A stretch of DNA of 64,000 nucleotides. Origin: Nodosilinea sp. FACHB-141 (GTDB taxonomy: Bacteria > Cyanobacteriota > Cyanobacteriia > Phormidesmidales > Phormidesmidaceae). The notes under the pieces are model-generated. The model was not told where the DNA came from and made no database searches. It was given only the letters and a program-made list of their open reading frames with translations. The stretch covers positions 62,001 to 126,000 of the forward strand of contig NZ_JACJPP010000012.1 in the NCBI RefSeq assembly GCF_014696135.1, in the 5' to 3' direction. The position numbers were made by a program, and so were the translations under genes. Shown piece by piece: positions 51,636 to 59,691 of the stretch; position 1 is the stretch's first letter, and every line of letters begins with the position of its first letter.

Positions 51636-51871
51636 ATGCCCACGTTACTTCGCGTTGTCCCTACCGTTTCTTCTGTTACGCGGGCGAGCGCGATGAGCCA
51701 GCCCACGTTCATATTGAGCGTGACAGTAGTGAGGCCAAATTTTGGCTGACTCCAGTCAGGCTTCAGTTCAACAAGGGGTTTTCGTCTAACGAGATAAATT
51801 GCCTTCAAGCGTTGACCAAGGACAATCAGCAGCAGTTATTGGAGGCTTGGCATGACTTCTTCAATGGTTGA
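51636..51871 (+). pseudogene. DUF4160 protein, frameshifted near its N-terminus
   Basis: The body reads in one frame: CPYRFFCYAGERDEPAHVHIERD (in part), AKFWLTPVRLQFNKGF, and a C-terminal QQQLLEAWHDFF, typical of DUF4160. The natural start ATG 51636 (MPTLLRV) is in another frame: family members read M-P-T-x-x-R-x-G-P-Y-R-F-F, so a base is missing between 51656 and 51658 (GTTGTCCC where GTTGGTCCC is expected). A long in-frame upstream extension exists but does not look coding. DUF4160 is usually paired with DUF2442, as here; the pair resembles toxin-antitoxin modules. Confidence 0.65.
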
Positions 51872-52178
51872 AATCCTCAACATCCCTGAGATTAAACAGG
51901 TTTCCATTTCTGCCGACCTGCTCACGGTTGATCTATCTGATGGGCGCGTTATCGCTGTACCGCTGGCCTGGTACCCTCGACTGCTCCACGGCACCTCGGC
52001 AGAACGTGACAACTGGCAAGTAATGGGTAGTCAAGCAGGTATCCACTGGCCAGAACTTGATGGAGACATTAGCTTGAAGAATATTTTGCTGGGGCAACCT
52101 TCGGCAGAAAGTCAAACCTCGCTGCAACGGTGGCTCGAAAACCGAACTCCTCAAGCACGAAGCTCGCAGCACGCCTAG
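51852..52178 (+). CDS. DUF2442 domain-containing protein
   Basis: 108 residues. The core VSISADLLTVDLSDGRVIAVPLAWYPRLLHG (in part) and the terminal HWPELDGDISLKNIL are typical of DUF2442, small DNA-binding-like or antitoxin-like proteins. ATG 51852 has a strong GGAGG ribosome site inside the end of the DUF4160 frame, which it overlaps by 20 bases. With its partner frameshifted, this gene may persist alone. Confidence 0.8.
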   Translation: MTSSMVEILNIPEIKQVSISADLLTVDLSDGRVIAVPLAWYPRLLHGTSAERDNWQVMGSQAGIHWPELDGDISLKNILLGQPSAESQTSLQRWLENRTPQARSSQHA

Positions 52179-52255
52179 TGCTGAAGTGTGGCTGAGGAAA
52201 GAGTATTCTTGCCACGAACGCTAAACGCTCAGCAATGCACTATCTCGGAGATTTT

Positions 52256-53536
52256 CTATGAACCCATTGCCACTTCATTGACGGTCTGCAGGGCGCGAAG
52301 CGGGCTGATCCCAGCTCGAGCGGCAACCTGCTCCGCCAAATACTCCGCGTCGCGGGCAATGCCGGAGAACCGGGCAGAACCCCAGGTGTAGAGCCACGGC
52401 AGGCCAAGGAAATATAGCCCCGGCACGGTAGTAACTCCTCGGCGGTGGCCAGGATAGCCCTGACCGTCAAACACGGGTAGCTCGATCCAGCGAAAGTCGA
52501 GACCGTAGCCGATGCACCAAATCACCGAGGTGATGTTGGCCTCCCGATAGTCGATTTCGGTATCAACAATCTCCGGTTCCCACACCGGTTGATAGGGCGG
52601 GTCTATGGGCGCGTCAATGCCGTTCTTCTCAAGGTAGGTGTCGATGGTGCGCTTGATGCTTTCGGCGACGGCATCGGCTTTGTCGAGATTTTCCTTCAGG
52701 TCGTCGCTAAAGGTGAGCTGGGTGCCCTGAATATCTGTAAGTCGCCCATGCAGCCCCATGCCCTGTAAGGCAAAGTGGCGCAGGTCAATTTCGCGCCCGC
52801 CGCCGCGCCCGGTGACGTAATGGTTGGTCTTGTAGCGCACGGTCTCTTTTTGCGGGTGGTCGTCGATCGCCAGGTCGTAGTAGCCCATTTGGTCGAGCCA
52901 TTCCACCACGTCTTTGCCTCGGTAGCGGCGGGGCGATCGCGGCGCACCCCCCACGCATAGATGTACCTTGCGGCCTGCCAGATGCAGGTCTTCGGCAATC
53001 TGACAGCCCGACTGCCCGGTGCCCACTACCAGCACAGCTCCCTCAGGCAACGACTCAGGGTTGCGATATTCTGCCGAGTGCAGTTGGACAATATCGGGTG
53101 CCAAACGCTCCGCTAGTCGGGGAATTTTGGGTGTGTGGTAGCCGCCTGTGGCTACCACTACCTGATCAGCAGTAAAGATGCCCTGGTTGGTCACCACTTC
53201 AAAACCGACGCCCTCGGGCTGGCGCACCCGTTCTACCTTAATCCCTGTTTTGAGCGGCAGGTCGAAGTGGTTGGCGTAGCGCTCGATGTACTCAACAATG
53301 GCGTCGCGGCCCATGAAGCCCTCGGGATCGTCGCCAGGGTAGGGAAAGCCAGGCAGTTGGCACTGCCAGTTAGGAGTGACCAAGCAGAACGAATCCCACC
53401 GCTTGGTGCGCCAGGAGTGGGCAACCTGGTGCTGTTCAAAAATGATGTGGTCGATGCCTAAGCGACTTAAGCAGTAGCTAATCGACAGCCCTGCCTGGCC
53501 GCCGCCAATCACAATTACGCCGTAGTGCATAGTCAT
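52256..53536 (-). CDS. MSMEG_0569-family flavin-dependent oxidoreductase (Nit1C)
   Basis: 426-residue FMO-like enzyme with two Rossmann sites: FAD-binding VIGGGQAGLSISY (residues ~8-20) and NADPH-binding VVGTGQSGCQIAED (~165-178). Further family segments include LVTPNWQCQLPGFPYPGDDPEGFM (in part) and VIWCIGYGLDFRWIELP. It is the oxidoreductase member of the Nit1C nitrilase cluster and is divergent from the other six genes. It may oxygenate or oxidise a nitrogenous or nitrile precursor; the substrate is not known. ATG 53536 or 53530 are both plausible. Confidence 0.85.
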   Translation of the reverse strand: MTMHYGVIVIGGGQAGLSISYCLSRLGIDHIIFEQHQVAHSWRTKRWDSFCLVTPNWQCQLPGFPYPGDDPEGFMGRDAIVEYIERYANHFDLPLKTGIKVERVRQPEGVGFEVVTNQGIFTADQVVVATGGYHTPKIPRLAERLAPDIVQLHSAEYRNPESLPEGAVLVVGTGQSGCQIAEDLHLAGRKVHLCVGGAPRSPRRYRGKDVVEWLDQMGYYDLAIDDHPQKETVRYKTNHYVTGRGGGREIDLRHFALQGMGLHGRLTDIQGTQLTFSDDLKENLDKADAVAESIKRTIDTYLEKNGIDAPIDPPYQPVWEPEIVDTEIDYREANITSVIWCIGYGLDFRWIELPVFDGQGYPGHRRGVTTVPGLYFLGLPWLYTWGSARFSGIARDAEYLAEQVAARAGISPLRALQTVNEVAMGS

Positions 53537-53710
53537 ACCGCAGGTCCTGCAAGTGGTGTGGGATGGGTCGTTCTTTTTCGTACCCTAGGCCGTTGCTCAG
53601 GGGATGCTTGTAACCCCGGCTACCGAAAGTCTTGATCTAGCGCTAGTGGCAGGGAGGGTAGGTGCGATCGCCCTGACCTTCCCTCGTTGAGCGTGAATTT
53701 GACCAGCCTA

Positions 53711-53737
53711 CCTATCGAAAGTGATAGGGGTATCCCC
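53711..53737. promoter_or_regulatory. Paired inverted repeats in the Nit1C divergent promoter
   Basis: CCTATC (53711-53716) with GATAGG (53723-53728), then GGGG-TAT-CCCC (53727-53737). They lie between the divergent oxidoreductase and the NtcA site and could be an operator for a local regulator. Confidence 0.4.
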
Positions 53738-53805
53738 GAGCCCAAACCCCCAAACTAGCGATTTGCCCCCGCGCCCCTGTTGATTAGGTCAGACCACCAA
53801 AGTTT

Positions 53806-53847
53806 GTAGTTGCTGATACGGGAGCCTCCTGCGATCGCCCGTAAGGT
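53806..53847 (+). promoter_or_regulatory. NtcA-activated (class II) promoter of the Nit1C genes
   Basis: GTA-GTTGCTGA-TAC (53806-53819) is a perfect NtcA box, GTAN8TAC. After exactly 22 bases comes TAAGGT (53842-53847), matching the TAN3T -10 element of NtcA class II promoters. A start site near 53855 would leave a ~50-base leader before the first gene. The signature is as clear as known NtcA promoters. Confidence 0.8.
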
Positions 53848-53905
53848 GCTGAGACATGCAGCCAGACATCCGGCGCTGCCAGCAACTTTGCAAGGAACTG
53901 AATTT

Positions 53906-54388
53906 ATGCCTGAAGTAACTTTGCCAGCCCACCAAGCTGGGGATTTTTTGGTTGACTACGAAGAGAAAGTATTTCCCGATGTGCAGGCCGAACCCGGCGA
54001 AAAAGCCCTGATCACCTTCCACACGGTGGCCTTTGAAGGATCCATCGGTCTGGTGAACCTGCTTCAAGCCACTCGCTTAATCCGTAAGGGCTTTGAGACC
54101 ACGGTACTGCTCTACGGCCCTGGCGTCACCCTAGGTGTGCAGCGCGGCTTCCCCAAGCTGGGCGATGAAGCATTCCCCGGCCACATGGCGATGAACAACC
54201 AACTCGTCAAGGTGATGGAGCTGGGCGGTAAGGTCTACGCCTGCCGCTTTGCCCTCCAGGCCCTCTACGGCCATGGTGAGCCTTCTCTGATCCCCGGCAT
54301 TCGCCCCATCAACCCCCTCGACGTGCTCGACCTCGTGCTAATGCACCGCAAAGAAGGTGCCTTCATTCTCGACACCTGGACCATGTAG
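53906..54388 (+). CDS. MSMEG_0572/Sll0783-family nitrogen-starvation protein (Nit1C)
   Basis: 160-residue DsrE/TusD-like fold protein. Visible features: [21 protein letters not shown] at the start, then [22 protein letters not shown] and [21 protein letters not shown] (in parts), and a Cys in [15 protein letters not shown]. The Synechocystis member Sll0783 is induced by nitrogen starvation and its loss impairs polyhydroxybutyrate accumulation. ATG 53906 with AAGGA upstream is used; the longer frame from 53810 overlaps the NtcA promoter. First gene of the rightward Nit1C unit. Confidence 0.9.
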
Positions 54389-54405
54389 AGACTCGTCAGC
54401 CTGCG

Positions 54406-54425
54406 TAGGGTGGGCAGTGCCCACC
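54406..54425. repeat. REP-like palindrome, copy 2
   Basis: TAGGGTGGGCA then G and TGCCCACC: an 8-bp perfect palindrome (54409-54416 and 54418-54425) with a one-base centre, in the 61-bp gap between the first Nit1C gene and the nitrilase gene. Related to the copy at 44026. It may modulate the relative expression of the two genes. Confidence 0.6.
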
Positions 54426-54449
54426 ACCCCTCCTCCCACCCCCAAATCC

Positions 54450-55496
54450 ATGGATTACACCAAAACCATTCGAGCTGCTGCTGCGCAGATTAGCCCTGTG
54501 CTGTTTAGCTGCGACGGCACCACCGAGAAGGTGCTGGAGACGATCGCCCAGGCGGCCCAGGCCGGGGTGAAGCTAATCGTCTTTCCAGAAACCTTTATTC
54601 CCTACTACCCCTACTTCTCGTTTGTGCAGCCGCCCGTTCTCATGGGTAAAGAGCACATGCGGCTGTACGAGGAGGCCGTGGTAGTGCCGGGACCGGTGAC
54701 CGATGCGGTGGGCCGGGCGGCGCGCTCCTACGGCATGGTGGTGGTGCTGGGGGTGAACGAGCGGGAGGCTGGCTCGATTTACAACACCCAGCTAATCTTT
54801 GACGCTGACGGCACCCTGGTGCTGAAACGGCGCAAAATCACCCCCACTTACCATGAACGCATGGTCTGGGGGCAAGGGGATGGGGCCGGGCTGAAGGTGG
54901 TGGAAACAGCGGTGGGGCGCGTCGGGGCGCTGGCCTGCTGGGAGCACTACAACCCTCTCGCCCGCTATGCGCTGATGACTCAGAACGAGCAGGTTCACTG
55001 CGGTCAGTTTCCGGGGTCGATGGTGGGGCAGATTTTTGGCGACCAAATGGAGGTCACCATGCGCCATCACGCTCTAGAGTCGGGCTGCTTTGTGGTCAAC
55101 GCCACCGGCTGGCTCACGCCAGAGCAAAAGCAGCAGATTACTGCTGATGAGGGGATGCAGCGAGTGCTGTCGGGGGGGTGCTACACCGCCATTATTAGCC
55201 CCGAGGGAGTGCCCCTGACAGAGCCGATTAGCGAGGGGGAGGGGCTGGCGATCGCCGATCTCGACTTCTCCCTAATCACCAAACGCAAGCGCATGATGGA
55301 CTCGGTAGGGCACTATGCCCGCCCCGACCTGCTGCGCCTGCGGTTAAATGCTGAACCCTGGTCTGTGGTAGAAACGCCCGCCCAAGCGGCCCAAATTTCC
55401 TCCGGCATGAACGGAGCCTCGCAGACTGCCCCAGCGTTAGTAGACGAAGCAGCCGTTGGCCTACCCCCCAACAGCCTTGGTCTGCCAACCTCCTAG
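54450..55496 (+). CDS. Nit6803-family nitrilase (Nit1C)
   Basis: 348-residue carbon-nitrogen hydrolase, nitrilase branch 1C. The catalytic triad is E47 (in [13 protein letters not shown]), K129 (in [11 protein letters not shown]) and C163 (in [12 protein letters not shown]); each lies six positions earlier than E53, K135 and C169 of Nit6803. It should convert a nitrile to a carboxylate plus ammonia; the natural substrate in this cluster is unknown. Nit6803 prefers fumaronitrile among tested compounds. A variable 40-residue tail follows the catalytic domain. ATG 54450. Confidence 0.93.
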
Positions 55497-55596: not shown

Positions 55597-56685
55597 ATGA
55601 ACAAGCAGCGGTTAATTACAGAGTTACAAACCCACGGGCTGCGGCTGGTGGAATCCACCCCTGGAGCAGCGGGGCGGCGAGGCGGGGCAGGCCCCTCTGA
55701 CCACCGCGCCATCACCATCGACGGCACTACCGTCATGGTGCCGGTCTACAACGATAGCGCCGCCCACTCTCCTTACACCCTCAGAGCTACCGCCGCCAGC
55801 CCCCTGCATATAGAGGCCTCGGGAGAAGCCATCACCCCCATCGACGTGCCCAATGCCCCCAGATTCTACGGTCTGACCACCGCCGATGGTATTCCCTACT
55901 CGAAGATTGCCCTTCTCCACGGGCGCGATGTGCTGGCTACCACGGTGCAGCAGACCTGCATGCGCTATCGCGACCCGGCCACAGCCTGCCAATTCTGCGC
56001 CATCGAAAAGTCCTTAGACGCGGGTCGCACCATTGCCCGCAAAACGCCGCAACAACTGGCGGAGGTAGCCGAAGCCGCCGTGCGGCTAGATGGGATAACC
56101 AACATGATCATGACGACGGGGACGCCGAATACGAGCGATCGCGGTGCTGCCTACTTGACCGAATGTGCCACCGCCATTCGCCAGCGGGTACCCAACCTGC
56201 CCATTCAGGCCCAGTGTGAGCCCCCTGACGACTTCGCCTGGTTTGAGCGCATGAAGGCGGCAGGCGTCGACAGCCTGGGCATGCACCTTGAAGCGGTGGA
56301 TCCTGACGTGCGAGCCAGAATTATGCCCGGCAAGGCGGAGGTTCCTCTCATCGTCTACTTTGCGGCCTTTGAGGCGGCGGTGAACGTGTTTGGTTGGGGC
56401 CAGGTGAGCACCTACCTGCTGGCGGGTCTGGGCGACAGCTTAGAAACCCTGGTGGAAGCGAGCGATCGCCTCATCCAGCTCGGCGTGTACCCCTTCGTGG
56501 TGCCCTTTGTGCCCATCGGCGAAACGCCACTGGCCCATCATCCTTCCCCCAGCAGCGAGTTTATGTTCACGCTCTACCAGCGGGTGGGGGCGCTGCTGAA
56601 GCAGTCGGGCATGGCCTCGGCAGATATAAAGGCAGGCTGCGCTAAATGCGGCGCTTGTTCGGCTCTGTCTACGTTTGAGGGTTAA
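55597..56685 (+). CDS. MSMEG_0568-family radical SAM protein (Nit1C)
   Basis: 362 residues. The N-terminal ~115 residues lack motifs. A Cys set C121-x9-C131-x2-C134 (in TCMRYRDPATACQFC) replaces the canonical CX3CX2C, which is characteristic of this family, followed by TTGTPNTSDRG and QAQCEPPDDFAWFERMKAAGVDS (in part), GMHLEAVD, and a radical-SAM-like barrel. A second Cys group C348-x2-C351-x2-C354 ends the chain and may hold an auxiliary Fe-S cluster. Reaction unknown. Five bases separate it from the next gene, so they are likely coupled. Confidence 0.88.
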   Translation: MNKQRLITELQTHGLRLVESTPGAAGRRGGAGPSDHRAITIDGTTVMVPVYNDSAAHSPYTLRATAASPLHIEASGEAITPIDVPNAPRFYGLTTADGIPYSKIALLHGRDVLATTVQQTCMRYRDPATACQFCAIEKSLDAGRTIARKTPQQLAEVAEAAVRLDGITNMIMTTGTPNTSDRGAAYLTECATAIRQRVPNLPIQAQCEPPDDFAWFERMKAAGVDSLGMHLEAVDPDVRARIMPGKAEVPLIVYFAAFEAAVNVFGWGQVSTYLLAGLGDSLETLVEASDRLIQLGVYPFVVPFVPIGETPLAHHPSPSSEFMFTLYQRVGALLKQSGMASADIKAGCAKCGACSALSTFEG

Positions 56686-56690
56686 TCACT

Positions 56691-57209
56691 ATGGCTCTCC
56701 ATCGCTACAGCTTTGAACTAGCGACGTCGCCCTACGATCTAGAAGGCTATTTTGCCCTGCGTCAGGCCATTTTCTGCGAAGAACAGGGGCTGTTTGACCA
56801 CGACGACGCCGACAGCTTGGATGGCGTCGCCTACCCCATCGTCGCCATTGACCACGAAGCCCTCCCAGAAAACCGCGTCGTAGGCGTGGTGCGCATTTAC
56901 GAAAAATCGCCCCGGCTCTGGTACGGCGGACGCCTGGGGGTTCATCCCAACTATCGCCGGGTGGGGCGCATCGGCAAAGGACTGATTCACAAAGCAGTGA
57001 CGACGGCCAATACCTGGGGCTGCGATCGCTTCCTCGCCACCGTTCAAGAGCAAAACGTCCGCTTCTTTCAGCGCCTCCACTGGGACTCGTTAGAGGAGAT
57101 GGTGCTCTGCGATCGCAACCATCACCTGATGGAGGCCGATCTGGCCCACTATCCCCCCGGTGACGAGGTGCGGCCTGGGCTGGCGGGGCTGCTGCGGCAG
57201 GTGTCTTGA
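56691..57209 (+). CDS. MSMEG_0567/Sll0786-family GNAT acetyltransferase (Nit1C)
   Basis: 172 residues, one GNAT domain: YFALRQAIFCEEQGLF at the start, IVAIDHEALPENRVVGVVRI, acetyl-CoA loop GVHPNYRRVGRIGKGLIHKA, and a final VQEQNVRFFQRLHWDS strand. It acetylates an unknown amine in the Nit1C pathway. Its start lies five bases after the radical SAM gene. A 315-bp gap with a G-rich tract follows. Confidence 0.87.
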   Translation: MALHRYSFELATSPYDLEGYFALRQAIFCEEQGLFDHDDADSLDGVAYPIVAIDHEALPENRVVGVVRIYEKSPRLWYGGRLGVHPNYRRVGRIGKGLIHKAVTTANTWGCDRFLATVQEQNVRFFQRLHWDSLEEMVLCDRNHHLMEADLAHYPPGDEVRPGLAGLLRQVS

Positions 57210-57411: not shown

Positions 57412-57435
57412 CTGGGGCCAGCGAAATGGCCCCAG
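57412..57435. other. Strong hairpin before the AIR-synthase-like gene
   Basis: CTGGGGCCA (57412-57420) and TGGCCCCAG (57427-57435), 9-bp perfect stem with loop GCGAAA, about 90 bp before the next Nit1C gene. A perfect palindrome GGTTTAAACC lies at 57341-57350. No T-run follows, so it is not a normal terminator. Confidence 0.5.
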
Positions 57436-57524
57436 CGGCAAATCTGGCTCTCCTACACTCGCCTTCGCTAGCCATACATTCCATGCATCACCAGGTAACC
57501 TCTCCAAGCATCCCTCAAGTATTT

Positions 57525-58517
57525 ATGTCAGACGAGCTAAAGCTATCTGAACTGGCTGCCGAACTGCGGCGATCGCTCGGCATCCTCCACAAACAAGACA
57601 TTCAAACAGCGGCAGACCGCCTGGGCACCTACGTGCGTTCTACCACCCAGCAACCCATTCTGCTAGGAGATGACTGCGCCGCCATCCCCGACGGCGAGGG
57701 CTACCTGCTGCTAGCCGTGGAGGGCATGTGGCCTACCCTGGTGGAGACTGATCCCTGGTTTGCCGGGTGGTGTGCTGTAATGGTCAACGTCAGCGATATC
57801 TATGCAATGGGAGGCCGCCCGATCGCCGTAGTCGATACCATCTGGAGCCCATCCGCCACATCAGTGGATCCCCTATGGCAGGGCATGGTGGCCGCATCTC
57901 AAGCCTTCAACGTGCCGATTGTGGGTGGGCACACCAGCTGCCATAGCCCTTACACGGCTCTATCAGTCGCCATTCTAGGTCGGGCCAACCGCCTGATCAC
58001 CAGCTTCAGCGCTCAACCGGGGGATGTGCTGCTCCACATTACCGACATGCAGGGGCACATGCACCCCCAATACCCGTTTTGGAACGCAGCGACAGAGTGT
58101 GAGCGCGATCGCCTACAAGCCAACCTAAATCTGCTGCCTGCCCTGGCCGAATTGGGCCTCTGCGACACCGGTAAAGACATCAGCATGGGCGGCATTGTGG
58201 GCACCACACTGATGTTGCTGGAGACATCAAACTGTGGGGCGGTGCTGAATTTAGGGGCGATCGCCCCACCCCCTCAAGTAGACTTGCTGCCGTGGCTGCT
58301 CAGCTTTCCCAGCTACGGCTATCTGCTCAGCGTGCGCCCCGAAGCCGTAGAACAAATACAACCCCCGTTCCACGACCGAGGGTTGGTGTGTGAACCCGTG
58401 GGCAAAATTACTGAAGGTCAAACGCTCACCCTGAAGCTCGGTGAAGTCTCCCTTTGCTTTTGGGACTTCGCCACCGAAGCCCTGACCGGATTTGGTGACA
58501 AGGTCCACGAGGTCTAA
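57525..58517 (+). CDS. Sll0787-family AIR synthase-like protein (Nit1C)
   Basis: 330 residues, PurM/SelD/HypE-like ATP-binding fold. Visible: LGDDCAAIPDGEGYLLLAVEGMW (in part), a glycine-rich VNVSDIYAMGGRPIAVVDTIW (in part), GGHTSCHSPY and GKDISMGGIVGTTLMLLE. Family members activate an oxygen or acyl group with ATP; the specific reaction in Nit1C is not known. ATG 57525 is chosen because the first 33 codons of the longer frame fall in the hairpin-rich gap. It ends one base before the glycosyltransferase start, showing tight coupling. Confidence 0.88.
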   Translation: MSDELKLSELAAELRRSLGILHKQDIQTAADRLGTYVRSTTQQPILLGDDCAAIPDGEGYLLLAVEGMWPTLVETDPWFAGWCAVMVNVSDIYAMGGRPIAVVDTIWSPSATSVDPLWQGMVAASQAFNVPIVGGHTSCHSPYTALSVAILGRANRLITSFSAQPGDVLLHITDMQGHMHPQYPFWNAATECERDRLQANLNLLPALAELGLCDTGKDISMGGIVGTTLMLLETSNCGAVLNLGAIAPPPQVDLLPWLLSFPSYGYLLSVRPEAVEQIQPPFHDRGLVCEPVGKITEGQTLTLKLGEVSLCFWDFATEALTGFGDKVHEV

Positions 58518-58518
58518 T

Positions 58519-59691
58519 ATGGCTCAACCCCTCAAAATTGCGCTGCTTACCTACTCCACCAAGCTAAGGGGTAGCGTTGTGCATACTCTAGAGCTGGCGA
58601 CGGCGCTTACAGAACTGGGGCATCAAGTCTGCATCTATGTCCTCGATAAAGACGGCCAAGGCTTCGATCGAACGATTCCAGCCAAGGTTCAGTTAGTACT
58701 TGCTAAACCGCCCTCGGCTGGCCTATCCCCTGATCAAGCTATCGACGTGCTGATTCGCCGGCGTATTCAAGAATTTGTCGATTACTTTTTGGCTTGTCCC
58801 GATCGCCACGATATCTACCACGCCCAAGACTGCATTGGGGCCAATGCCCTGGTGCAGCTGCGGCAGCAGGGCCGAGTGCCCAACGTAGTGCGTACTGTTC
58901 ACCACATCGAAGACTACGCCAGCGTTTACCTGCAACGGTGTCAGGATAAATCGATTCGGGATCCTGATCTGTGTTTGTGCGTGAGCGATCGCTGGCACCA
59001 AGCCCTCCGCGACGAGTACGGTATTGAAGCCCCCCGAGTGCTCAACGGCGTGGATCTACGGCGATTCTCTCCAACTCCCTCTGGCCAAGAAGAGGCTCGC
59101 AAAGCTCGCTACGGCCTGACCGGATCACCTATTTTTCTCACCGTAGGTGGTATTGAGCCGCGCAAGAATTCTATTCGTTTGCTAGAAGCGTTTGCCCAGG
59201 TGCTCACCACCTATCCCCAGGCGCAGCTCGTCATTGCGGGCGGGGCCACCCTATTTGACTACGAACCCTATCGGCAGAGATTCTTTGCCCGAGCGAAGGA
59301 TCTAGAGCAGCAGCACGGCCCATTGATGGGTCAATCCGTCCTGCTCCCAGGGGTGATTGCCGATGAGGATTTACCTGCGCTTTACCGCGCCGCCGATGTG
59401 TTTTGCTTTCCATCGACCAAAGAGGGCTGGGGGCTGGTGGTGCTGGAGGCGATCGCCTCAGGCTTACCCGTCATCACCGCTGACCAGCCCCCGTTTACCG
59501 AATTTCTTAGCTCAAATCAGGCTTTATTAGTCAATCCTGATTTGCCCTCTGCCATTGCTGCCGCCATGGTTGCGGCGCTAGACCCTAGGACAGCAGATCA
59601 GCTCGTTCAGCATAGTCAGACGGTGCTGCTCAACTACACTTGGGAAAAATCGGCCAGCCTGCACGTAACTCACTACCAAACCCTAATATAG
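58519..59691 (+). CDS. MSMEG_0565-family glycosyltransferase (Nit1C)
   Basis: 390-residue GT-B (GT4-like) glycosyltransferase. N-terminal LLTYSTKLRGSVVHTLELATAL, mid FLTVGGIEPRKNSIRLLEAF, and C-terminal donor site FPSTKEGWGLVVLEAIASGLPVI (in part) with the E-x7-E pattern. It would transfer a sugar to the Nit1C product or intermediate, suggesting a glycosylated nitrogen-containing metabolite. Last gene of the rightward unit. Confidence 0.9.
   Translation: MAQPLKIALLTYSTKLRGSVVHTLELATALTELGHQVCIYVLDKDGQGFDRTIPAKVQLVLAKPPSAGLSPDQAIDVLIRRRIQEFVDYFLACPDRHDIYHAQDCIGANALVQLRQQGRVPNVVRTVHHIEDYASVYLQRCQDKSIRDPDLCLCVSDRWHQALRDEYGIEAPRVLNGVDLRRFSPTPSGQEEARKARYGLTGSPIFLTVGGIEPRKNSIRLLEAFAQVLTTYPQAQLVIAGGATLFDYEPYRQRFFARAKDLEQQHGPLMGQSVLLPGVIADEDLPALYRAADVFCFPSTKEGWGLVVLEAIASGLPVITADQPPFTEFLSSNQALLVNPDLPSAIAAAMVAALDPRTADQLVQHSQTVLLNYTWEKSASLHVTHYQTLI

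Follow-up and report, generated by a model that had tools for sequence, protein, structure and literature searches.

The window analysed here, a stretch of 64,000 nucleotides from a contig of the cyanobacterium Nodosilinea sp. FACHB-141, carries a Nit1C gene cluster, and all seven of the genes scanned in it match Nit1C-type NCBIfam models above cut-off. On the minus strand lies the gene of an MSMEG_0569-family flavin-dependent oxidoreductase (nitH-type; 52256-53536; TIGR04046, 682 bits). Divergent from this flavoprotein gene, and separated from it by an intergenic region of 369 nt, the nitB-G operon occupies the plus strand, comprising genes for an MSMEG_0572/Sll0783-family nitrogen starvation response protein (nitB-type; 53906-54388; TIGR04044, 288 bits), a Nit6803-family nitrilase (nitC-type; 54450-55496; TIGR04048), an MSMEG_0568-family radical SAM protein (55597-56685; TIGR04043), an MSMEG_0567/Sll0786-family N-acetyltransferase (56691-57209; TIGR04045), an sll0787-family AIR-synthase-like protein (57426-58517; TIGR04049) and an MSMEG_0565-family glycosyltransferase (58492-59691; TIGR04047), the start codons of the last two being uncertain. 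Nitrilase, radical SAM, GNAT, AIR-synthase-like, Sll0783-type and flavoprotein genes are thus found together, which places the cluster in Nit1C. Only in seven close relatives are its SepF/ProC neighbours retained, and the DUF2442 gene that separates proC from the flavoprotein gene (51852-52178) is unrelated to the promoter question considered below.

NtcA class II promoters are described as combining a GTAN8TAC core with a TAN3T -10 box, the centre of the core being expected at -41.5 (PMC3898017). Upstream of nitB, on the plus strand, an exact GTA-N8-TAC core (GTAGTTGCTGATAC, 53806-53819) is followed 22 bases on by the -10 box TAAGGT (53842-53847), precisely where the earlier note had located them. 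A second exact core (GTAGCCGGGGTTAC, 53610-53623, minus strand) faces the divergent flavoprotein gene, again with a -10 box 22 bases beyond it (TAGGGT, 53582-53587, minus strand). From the geometry of these sites (for nitB, a site centre at 53812.5 plus 41.5) transcription is predicted to start near 53854 for nitB and near 53575 on the minus strand for the flavoprotein gene. No sigma-70-type promoter was found in the region, a weak negative since only 0.2 would be expected there by chance.

The GTA-N8-TAC core alone is not unusual, occurring 8 times in the 64 kb against 5.06 expected, and the same holds for the bare complete pattern at the scale of the 5.9 Mb genome, where 15 matches with a 22-base spacing (N22) compare with 13 for a reversed control, and 24 matches at N23 with 21. 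We therefore discarded genome-wide enrichment as a line of evidence, given that these counts are at chance level, and consider that position and conservation are what count instead. The N22 tally is also what would speak for reading the motif at 53806-53847 as a chance match. Against that reading, the complete motif occurs only twice in the window when spacings of 18 to 26 are tested (53806-53847 on the plus strand and 53582-53623 on the minus strand), and both occurrences have the N22 spacing and fall within the one 369-nt intergenic region; together with the sharp peak in spacing at N22/N23 and the conservation among orthologous promoters described below, this leaves a chance match in practice refuted. 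Two of the 15 N22 matches lie upstream of glnA (TIGR00653) and urtA (TIGR03407), both identified above cut-off. These genes are canonical NtcA targets (PMC3898017), and their sites consequently serve as internal positive controls for the pattern.

Conservation was assessed over 80 loci in named genomes and 27 in further cyanobacterial genomes, from which three duplicates (L104, L110 and L113) and the window itself (L111) were then left out. An exact N22/N23 site is present in 38 of 57 non-picocyanobacterial nitB promoters, rising to 44 if one mismatch is allowed, and in 31 of the 36 scannable flavoprotein promoters (35 with one mismatch), a count that omits co-directional flavoprotein genes running off the stretch. 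Shuffled controls gave means of only 0.09 (nitB) and 0.07 (flavoprotein) exact sites, with maxima of 2 and 1. Among the 19 nitB promoters that do not have an exact site, six have one with a single mismatch and another nine are preceded by a co-directional flavoprotein gene. Exact N22/N23 sites are absent from all 25 proteobacterial nitB loci. The spacing itself is sharply peaked: of 103 core-orientations, divergent regions being read in both, 38 have a -10 box at N22 and 32 at N23, and no other spacing in the range 5-45 accounts for more than four. The site-bearing promoters fall into 9 (nitB) and 13 (flavoprotein) groups between which the upstream DNA is unalignable. Within the order to which the window's genome belongs, 27 loci (out of 48 matching, and partly overlapping the named set, with L181 identical to L035) all have the site within one mismatch, 22 of them exactly. 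We set aside the invariance of the two motifs in an alignment of eight sequences (18/18 positions, against 98/285 elsewhere) as circular, the seven other loci having been chosen for possessing both sites. Because of its conservation at orthologous promoters, the NtcA site appears to be more than a chance occurrence, and activation of both transcription units from class II sites of the NtcA type can be regarded as well supported at the level of sequence comparison.

The earlier note had described a textbook NtcA class II promoter in front of the Nit1C genes. This description gains support from the conservation outlined above, from the presence in the genome of one NtcA gene over the family cut-off (385.5 bits), and from the published induction of sll0783 and its neighbours by nitrogen starvation in Synechocystis (PMC3901256), where they are also ammonium repressed (PMC10094980). 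The sll0783-sll0787 operon of Synechocystis consists of gene families orthologous to those of the present cluster, and sll0782, adjacent in number, is likewise ammonium repressed (log2 -1.58; PMC10094980), its product appearing in a further source as a helix-turn-helix protein without known function (PMC5318462); sll0782 is a candidate for the Synechocystis counterpart of the GAF-LuxR regulator introduced below. NtcA control of the cluster is thus largely expected from the Synechocystis work, and a report of an NtcA site at sll0783 is likely to exist already. The description was nonetheless incomplete, having missed the divergent NtcA promoter and the conserved boxes to which we turn below, such that the textbook promoter probably represents no more than one half of the switch. 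The note had further drawn on the nearness of the gene for PipX, the NtcA coactivator (NF045912; 48555-48827). Its position, some 5 kb from the NtcA site, is correct, but PipX acts in trans and in the 15 other Nit1C genomes compared its gene is 0.7 Mb or more away from the cluster (nine genomes) or on another contig (six), so that its nearness here carries no weight.

Conserved blocks other than the NtcA sites first became visible on aligning the window with seven relatives. Midway between the two promoters lies a central dyad (CCTATCGAAAGTGATAGG, 53711-53728, of the form CCTATC-GAAAGT-GATAGG and assigned to neither strand), 93 bp from the NtcA centre of nitB and 103 bp from that of the flavoprotein gene, the latter distance varying across other lineages. 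In addition, a weaker, proximal box lies upstream of each NtcA site, its centre in both cases exactly 28 bp from the NtcA centre (CCTGTTGATTAGGTCAGA, 53776-53793, plus strand, for nitB; CCTGCCACTAGCGCTAGA, 53636-53653, minus strand, for the flavoprotein gene). The weaker boxes follow a consensus of roughly CCTRTC-N2-TA-N2-G-N-TAGAC and were identified by their position and this family consensus; those of the window are poor palindromes, that of nitB (identical in L001) having 5/12 mismatches. A presumed resemblance of the dyad to tetO was considered, and this reading was dropped.

For the boxes, 41 nitB promoters were scanned further upstream (480 nt), which adds L112 and L115; the set also retains L050, a locus labelled Tatlockia that was left out of the NtcA count. 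With up to two mismatches, 29 of these promoters have the dyad upstream of the NtcA centre at a distance of 90-94 bp (shuffle mean 0.02), leaving 12 that do not have it there, and 32 have it within 20-250 bp (shuffle mean 0.34). Six of the nine nitB lineage groups have it at 90-94 bp, while three never have it within two mismatches; among the 27 loci of the window's own order, 19 have a dyad, 17 of these at 90-93 bp. Proximal boxes (up to three mismatches) occur at exactly 28 bp in 15 of the 41 nitB promoters (shuffle mean 0.02) and in 12 of 31 flavoprotein promoters (0.03). The window's dyad is the only perfect copy of CCTATC-N6-GATAGG in its genome, where one mismatch yields nine places against five for the control. 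That genome has 39 matches to the class II pattern, and only the two of Nit1C are accompanied by boxes: these deviate from the 13 consensus positions by 3 and 2 mismatches, compared with 7-12 at the others, and the best dyad within 250 bp upstream of the other 37 matches has at least three mismatches, against a perfect one at Nit1C. On this sequence evidence we consider the second boxes well supported as real elements.

Several further features of the boxes were observed. Six loci (L039, L040, L041, L043, L045 and L052) have two dyads within two mismatches upstream of nitB, one at 28 bp and the other at 91-92 bp from the NtcA core, spaced 63-64 bp apart. The helical phasing of the variant spacings gives p = 0.08 at a period of 10.5 bp and 0.007 at 11 bp, these being the two periods tried. 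Among the 25 proteobacterial loci, a dyad with a single mismatch occurs in one (L079), which has no NtcA site. The asymmetric spacer of the dyad occurs in both orientations, as GAAAGT in loci of the window type and as ACTTTC in others (e.g. L004:3758-3775 and L014:2295-2312), which is what a binding site with two-fold symmetry would allow.

It might be argued that the central dyad acts as an RNA hairpin or terminator instead of as a DNA-binding site, given that its arms (6 bp here and 8 bp in some relatives) could fold, and that at co-directional loci it is situated between the flavoprotein stop codon and the nitB promoter. Yet in the window it lies upstream of both predicted starts, it also occurs at loci with a divergent flavoprotein gene or with none nearby, and its asymmetric spacer is found in both orientations; moreover, the region yielded no terminator-like site, and Rfam returned no match in 52000-54500. 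A role as RNA is consequently very improbable.

The picocyanobacteria present a different picture. In their Nit1C loci (L036, L038, L060, L069, L070, L073, L076, L080 and L117-L128) the divergent intergenic region measures 188-430 nt and contains neither a class II site (0 of 20 nitB loci) nor a dyad; it contains other conserved blocks (GTAGNGA-type, GGTYGCATCGGCGACA) with the look of a degenerate GT-N10-AC. The GAF-LuxR regulator introduced below is also absent from all 12 whole picocyanobacterial genomes that carry the cluster, and control of Nit1C must differ in this group. Two odd loci may be mentioned here. The contig bearing L050, filed under a Tatlockia metagenome-assembled genome, has a cyanobacterial-type Nit1C promoter (NtcA core, N23) and is probably misbinned. 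Locus L129 (genome G159) has an in-frame TGA in nitB, an NtcA core with no -10 box at N22/N23, and no dyad, and looks like a decaying cluster.

A candidate for the protein that recognises the boxes comes from gene neighbourhoods. A GAF protein with a LuxR-type helix-turn-helix (HTH) is the commonest family adjoining the cluster, occurring at 9 of 47 non-picocyanobacterial loci (three of these nine neighbour copies are cut at the edge of the stretch). Using a profile of this regulator, we searched 386 genomes from the phylum, with four candidates scored per genome (profile row L039 corresponding to genome G289). Matches at E = 1.6e-118 or better occur in 14 genomes, which are 14 of the 15 non-picocyanobacterial Nit1C carriers, G159 being the exception, and in none of the 359 genomes that do not have the cluster, where G008 has a partial match only, to a GAF domain that forms part of a larger protein. 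Rescoring with up to 26 candidates likewise found no orthologue in 54 of the 359 cluster-less genomes (17 of the window's own class and 37 of others; G008 again partial only), or in G159 and five picocyanobacteria, making 60 genomes in all. The Fisher probability for the association of regulator and cluster (p = 1.6e-24) is flattering, since the 359 genomes include other classes and are not independent. In 8 of the 14 genomes, that of the window included, the regulator is on another contig or more than 500 kb from the cluster (in G133 the two occupy separate contigs, both short), so that the match is not explained by neighbourhood alone. With up to two mismatches, 11 of the 14 regulator-bearing genomes have the dyad, the exceptions being G058, G121 and G346.

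A second draw of 63 genomes from the window's own order contained 44 with both regulator and cluster, 4 with the cluster only, 4 with the regulator only and 11 with neither; three genomes are shared with the first draw, the value for the association being 3.9e-6 without them. Of those with the cluster only, G423 is the genome of locus L035 (100% over 3477 bases), in which the end of the regulator is present and the rest is cut by the contig start, and the other three (G396, G401 and G444) are fragmented drafts; two of the four, G423 among them, still have the dyad. Four genomes (G389, G394, G432 and G441) have the regulator and no nitB match, possible explanations being that the cluster was lost, that the assembly has a gap or that the regulator has a different target. 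A further four (G387, G399, G404 and G442) have two regulator copies, one of a long and one of a short form. The association between regulator and cluster is therefore strong, not perfect.

In light of this co-occurrence, the most economical reading is that the GAF-LuxR protein binds the boxes. A more modest explanation would be that plain NtcA class II promoters operate on both sides, with the boxes binding an unrelated or general factor, such as a response regulator or nucleoid protein, and the GAF-LuxR protein regulating something else. The link between boxes and regulator is indeed one of co-occurrence, the regulator is unlinked to the cluster here, and the own-order draw includes the four genomes with only the regulator and the four with only the cluster. 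On the other hand, the presence of the regulator tracks that of the cluster, and a perfect dyad that is unique in the genome, with none of two or fewer mismatches in the 250 bp upstream of the other 37 class II matches, argues against a general factor. We thus consider this more modest explanation unlikely.

The window genome's own regulator, L172, is encoded on contig 4, and no dyad or class II site was found upstream of its gene, such that there is no sign of autoregulation. L172 matches PF13185 (GAF) and, at its C-terminus, PF00196 (GerE HTH) above Pfam cut-offs. In its predicted model (pLDDT 83.5, pTM 0.41) a GAF fold spans approximately residues 24-190 (best Z 21.1 in a fold search, with the GAF domain of NifA among the matches at Z 16.6), and the HTH helices are placed at the C-terminal end. 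The middle of the protein, judged from sequence and predicted secondary structure, looks like a degenerate kinase ATPase domain followed by a degenerate receiver; the fold search, with GAF-containing chains among the matches listed, did not confirm this kinase-like and receiver-like middle. Five short forms among 13 regulator sequences seem to be without the receiver-like part. A Pfam scan of eight regulator proteins returned only GAF and HTH families, apart from weak unrelated matches, and detected no AAA+ sigma-54 interaction domain, Fis HTH or autoinducer-binding domain.

From the NtcA-type sites, the boxes of both kinds and the distances between these elements, together with the co-occurrence of regulator and cluster, all of which are read from the sequences, we propose that the 369-nt region may function as a bidirectional promoter with two inputs. 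Under nitrogen shortage, NtcA activated by 2-oxoglutarate would occupy both class II sites, bringing RNA polymerase to the two flanking -10 boxes. The central palindromic box common to both promoters (at about -134 for nitB), and also the weaker box just upstream of each NtcA site (at about -69.5), would be bound by a second regulator, for which the GAF-LuxR protein L172 is the likeliest candidate. Its GAF domain might sense a signal specific to the cluster, perhaps a nitrile or a compound derived from cyanide, and by analogy with NtcA and NtcB at nirA we infer that the protein would serve as a co-activator. Taken as a whole, we regard this two-input promoter, with NtcA and a GAF-LuxR co-activator, as probable.

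A related possibility is that the GAF-LuxR protein binds the boxes and represses transcription until a nitrile or cyanide signal arrives, leaving NtcA as the sole activator. A dyad common to two divergent promoters would suit a repressor that makes a loop, and the proximal box adjoins the NtcA site, their centres being 28 bp apart. The boxes nonetheless fall outside the core promoter, on the upstream side of the activator (at about -134 and -69.5), which is the usual position for a co-activator, and we view repression as doubtful, if a serious contender. A broader generalisation is that a dedicated one-component regulator, a collapsed two-component system made up of a GAF domain, kinase-ATPase-like and receiver-like remnants and a LuxR-type HTH, runs the non-picocyanobacterial Nit1C cluster by binding CCTATC-N6-GATAGG at a set spacing from NtcA, making nitrile or cyanide use dependent on both nitrogen hunger and substrate. 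Our opinion of this generalisation is finely balanced, leaning slightly in its favour.

Cyanobacterial Nit1C has been described in terms of cyanide or nitrile assimilation (PMC9716671, PMC10119275), and the authors of PMC3901256 did not succeed in establishing the function of Sll0783; despite nitrogen-starvation induction in Synechocystis, the purpose of the cluster in cyanobacteria is unsettled. The conserved composite promoter, with its apparently dedicated second regulator, would represent a new variant of control by NtcA plus a partner. That regulator itself is apparently undescribed and seems to be largely confined to cyanobacteria that carry the cluster. Neither it nor the dyad is described in the titles and abstract openings that our searches of the Sll0783, Nit1C and NtcA literature listed. 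If our interpretation is correct, a dedicated sensor-regulator with its target box would offer a direct handle on the purpose of Nit1C, since the inducing compound would be expected to be its natural substrate or product.

Comparison with known systems places the candidate in context. In Pseudomonas, the putative Nit1C regulator NitA belongs to the Fis family of sigma-54-dependent regulators (PMC11049912); the enzyme clusters are alike, each with its own putative regulator, whereas the candidate in cyanobacteria combines GAF with LuxR-type domains, Pfam detecting neither an AAA+ nor a Fis domain in it. With respect to regulators of the LuxR type that recognise lux boxes, the candidate has a GAF domain in place of the autoinducer-binding domain. 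Lux boxes take the form CT-N12-AG, which the dyad fits when one flanking base is included on each side, giving 20 bp. This is also the length of the lux box, described as a 20-bp inverted repeat (PMC7683790). Relative to other NtcA class II promoters (glnA, urtA, nirA and ntcB), the core and -10 box are alike, whereas here two divergent promoters share extra boxes that glnA and urtA of the same genome do not have. A precedent is offered by nirA, at which the global regulator NtcA is joined by a pathway-specific activator, the LysR-type protein NtcB. A title cited in PMC3898017 presents nirA as needing both NtcA and NtcB. In contrast to NtcB, a LysR protein, the candidate partner at Nit1C is a GAF-LuxR protein with a CCTATC-N6-GATAGG dyad and, if confirmed, the cluster would provide a second example, beside NtcB at nirA, of NtcA acting together with a partner specific to the pathway, one for which boxes and spacings are exactly defined.
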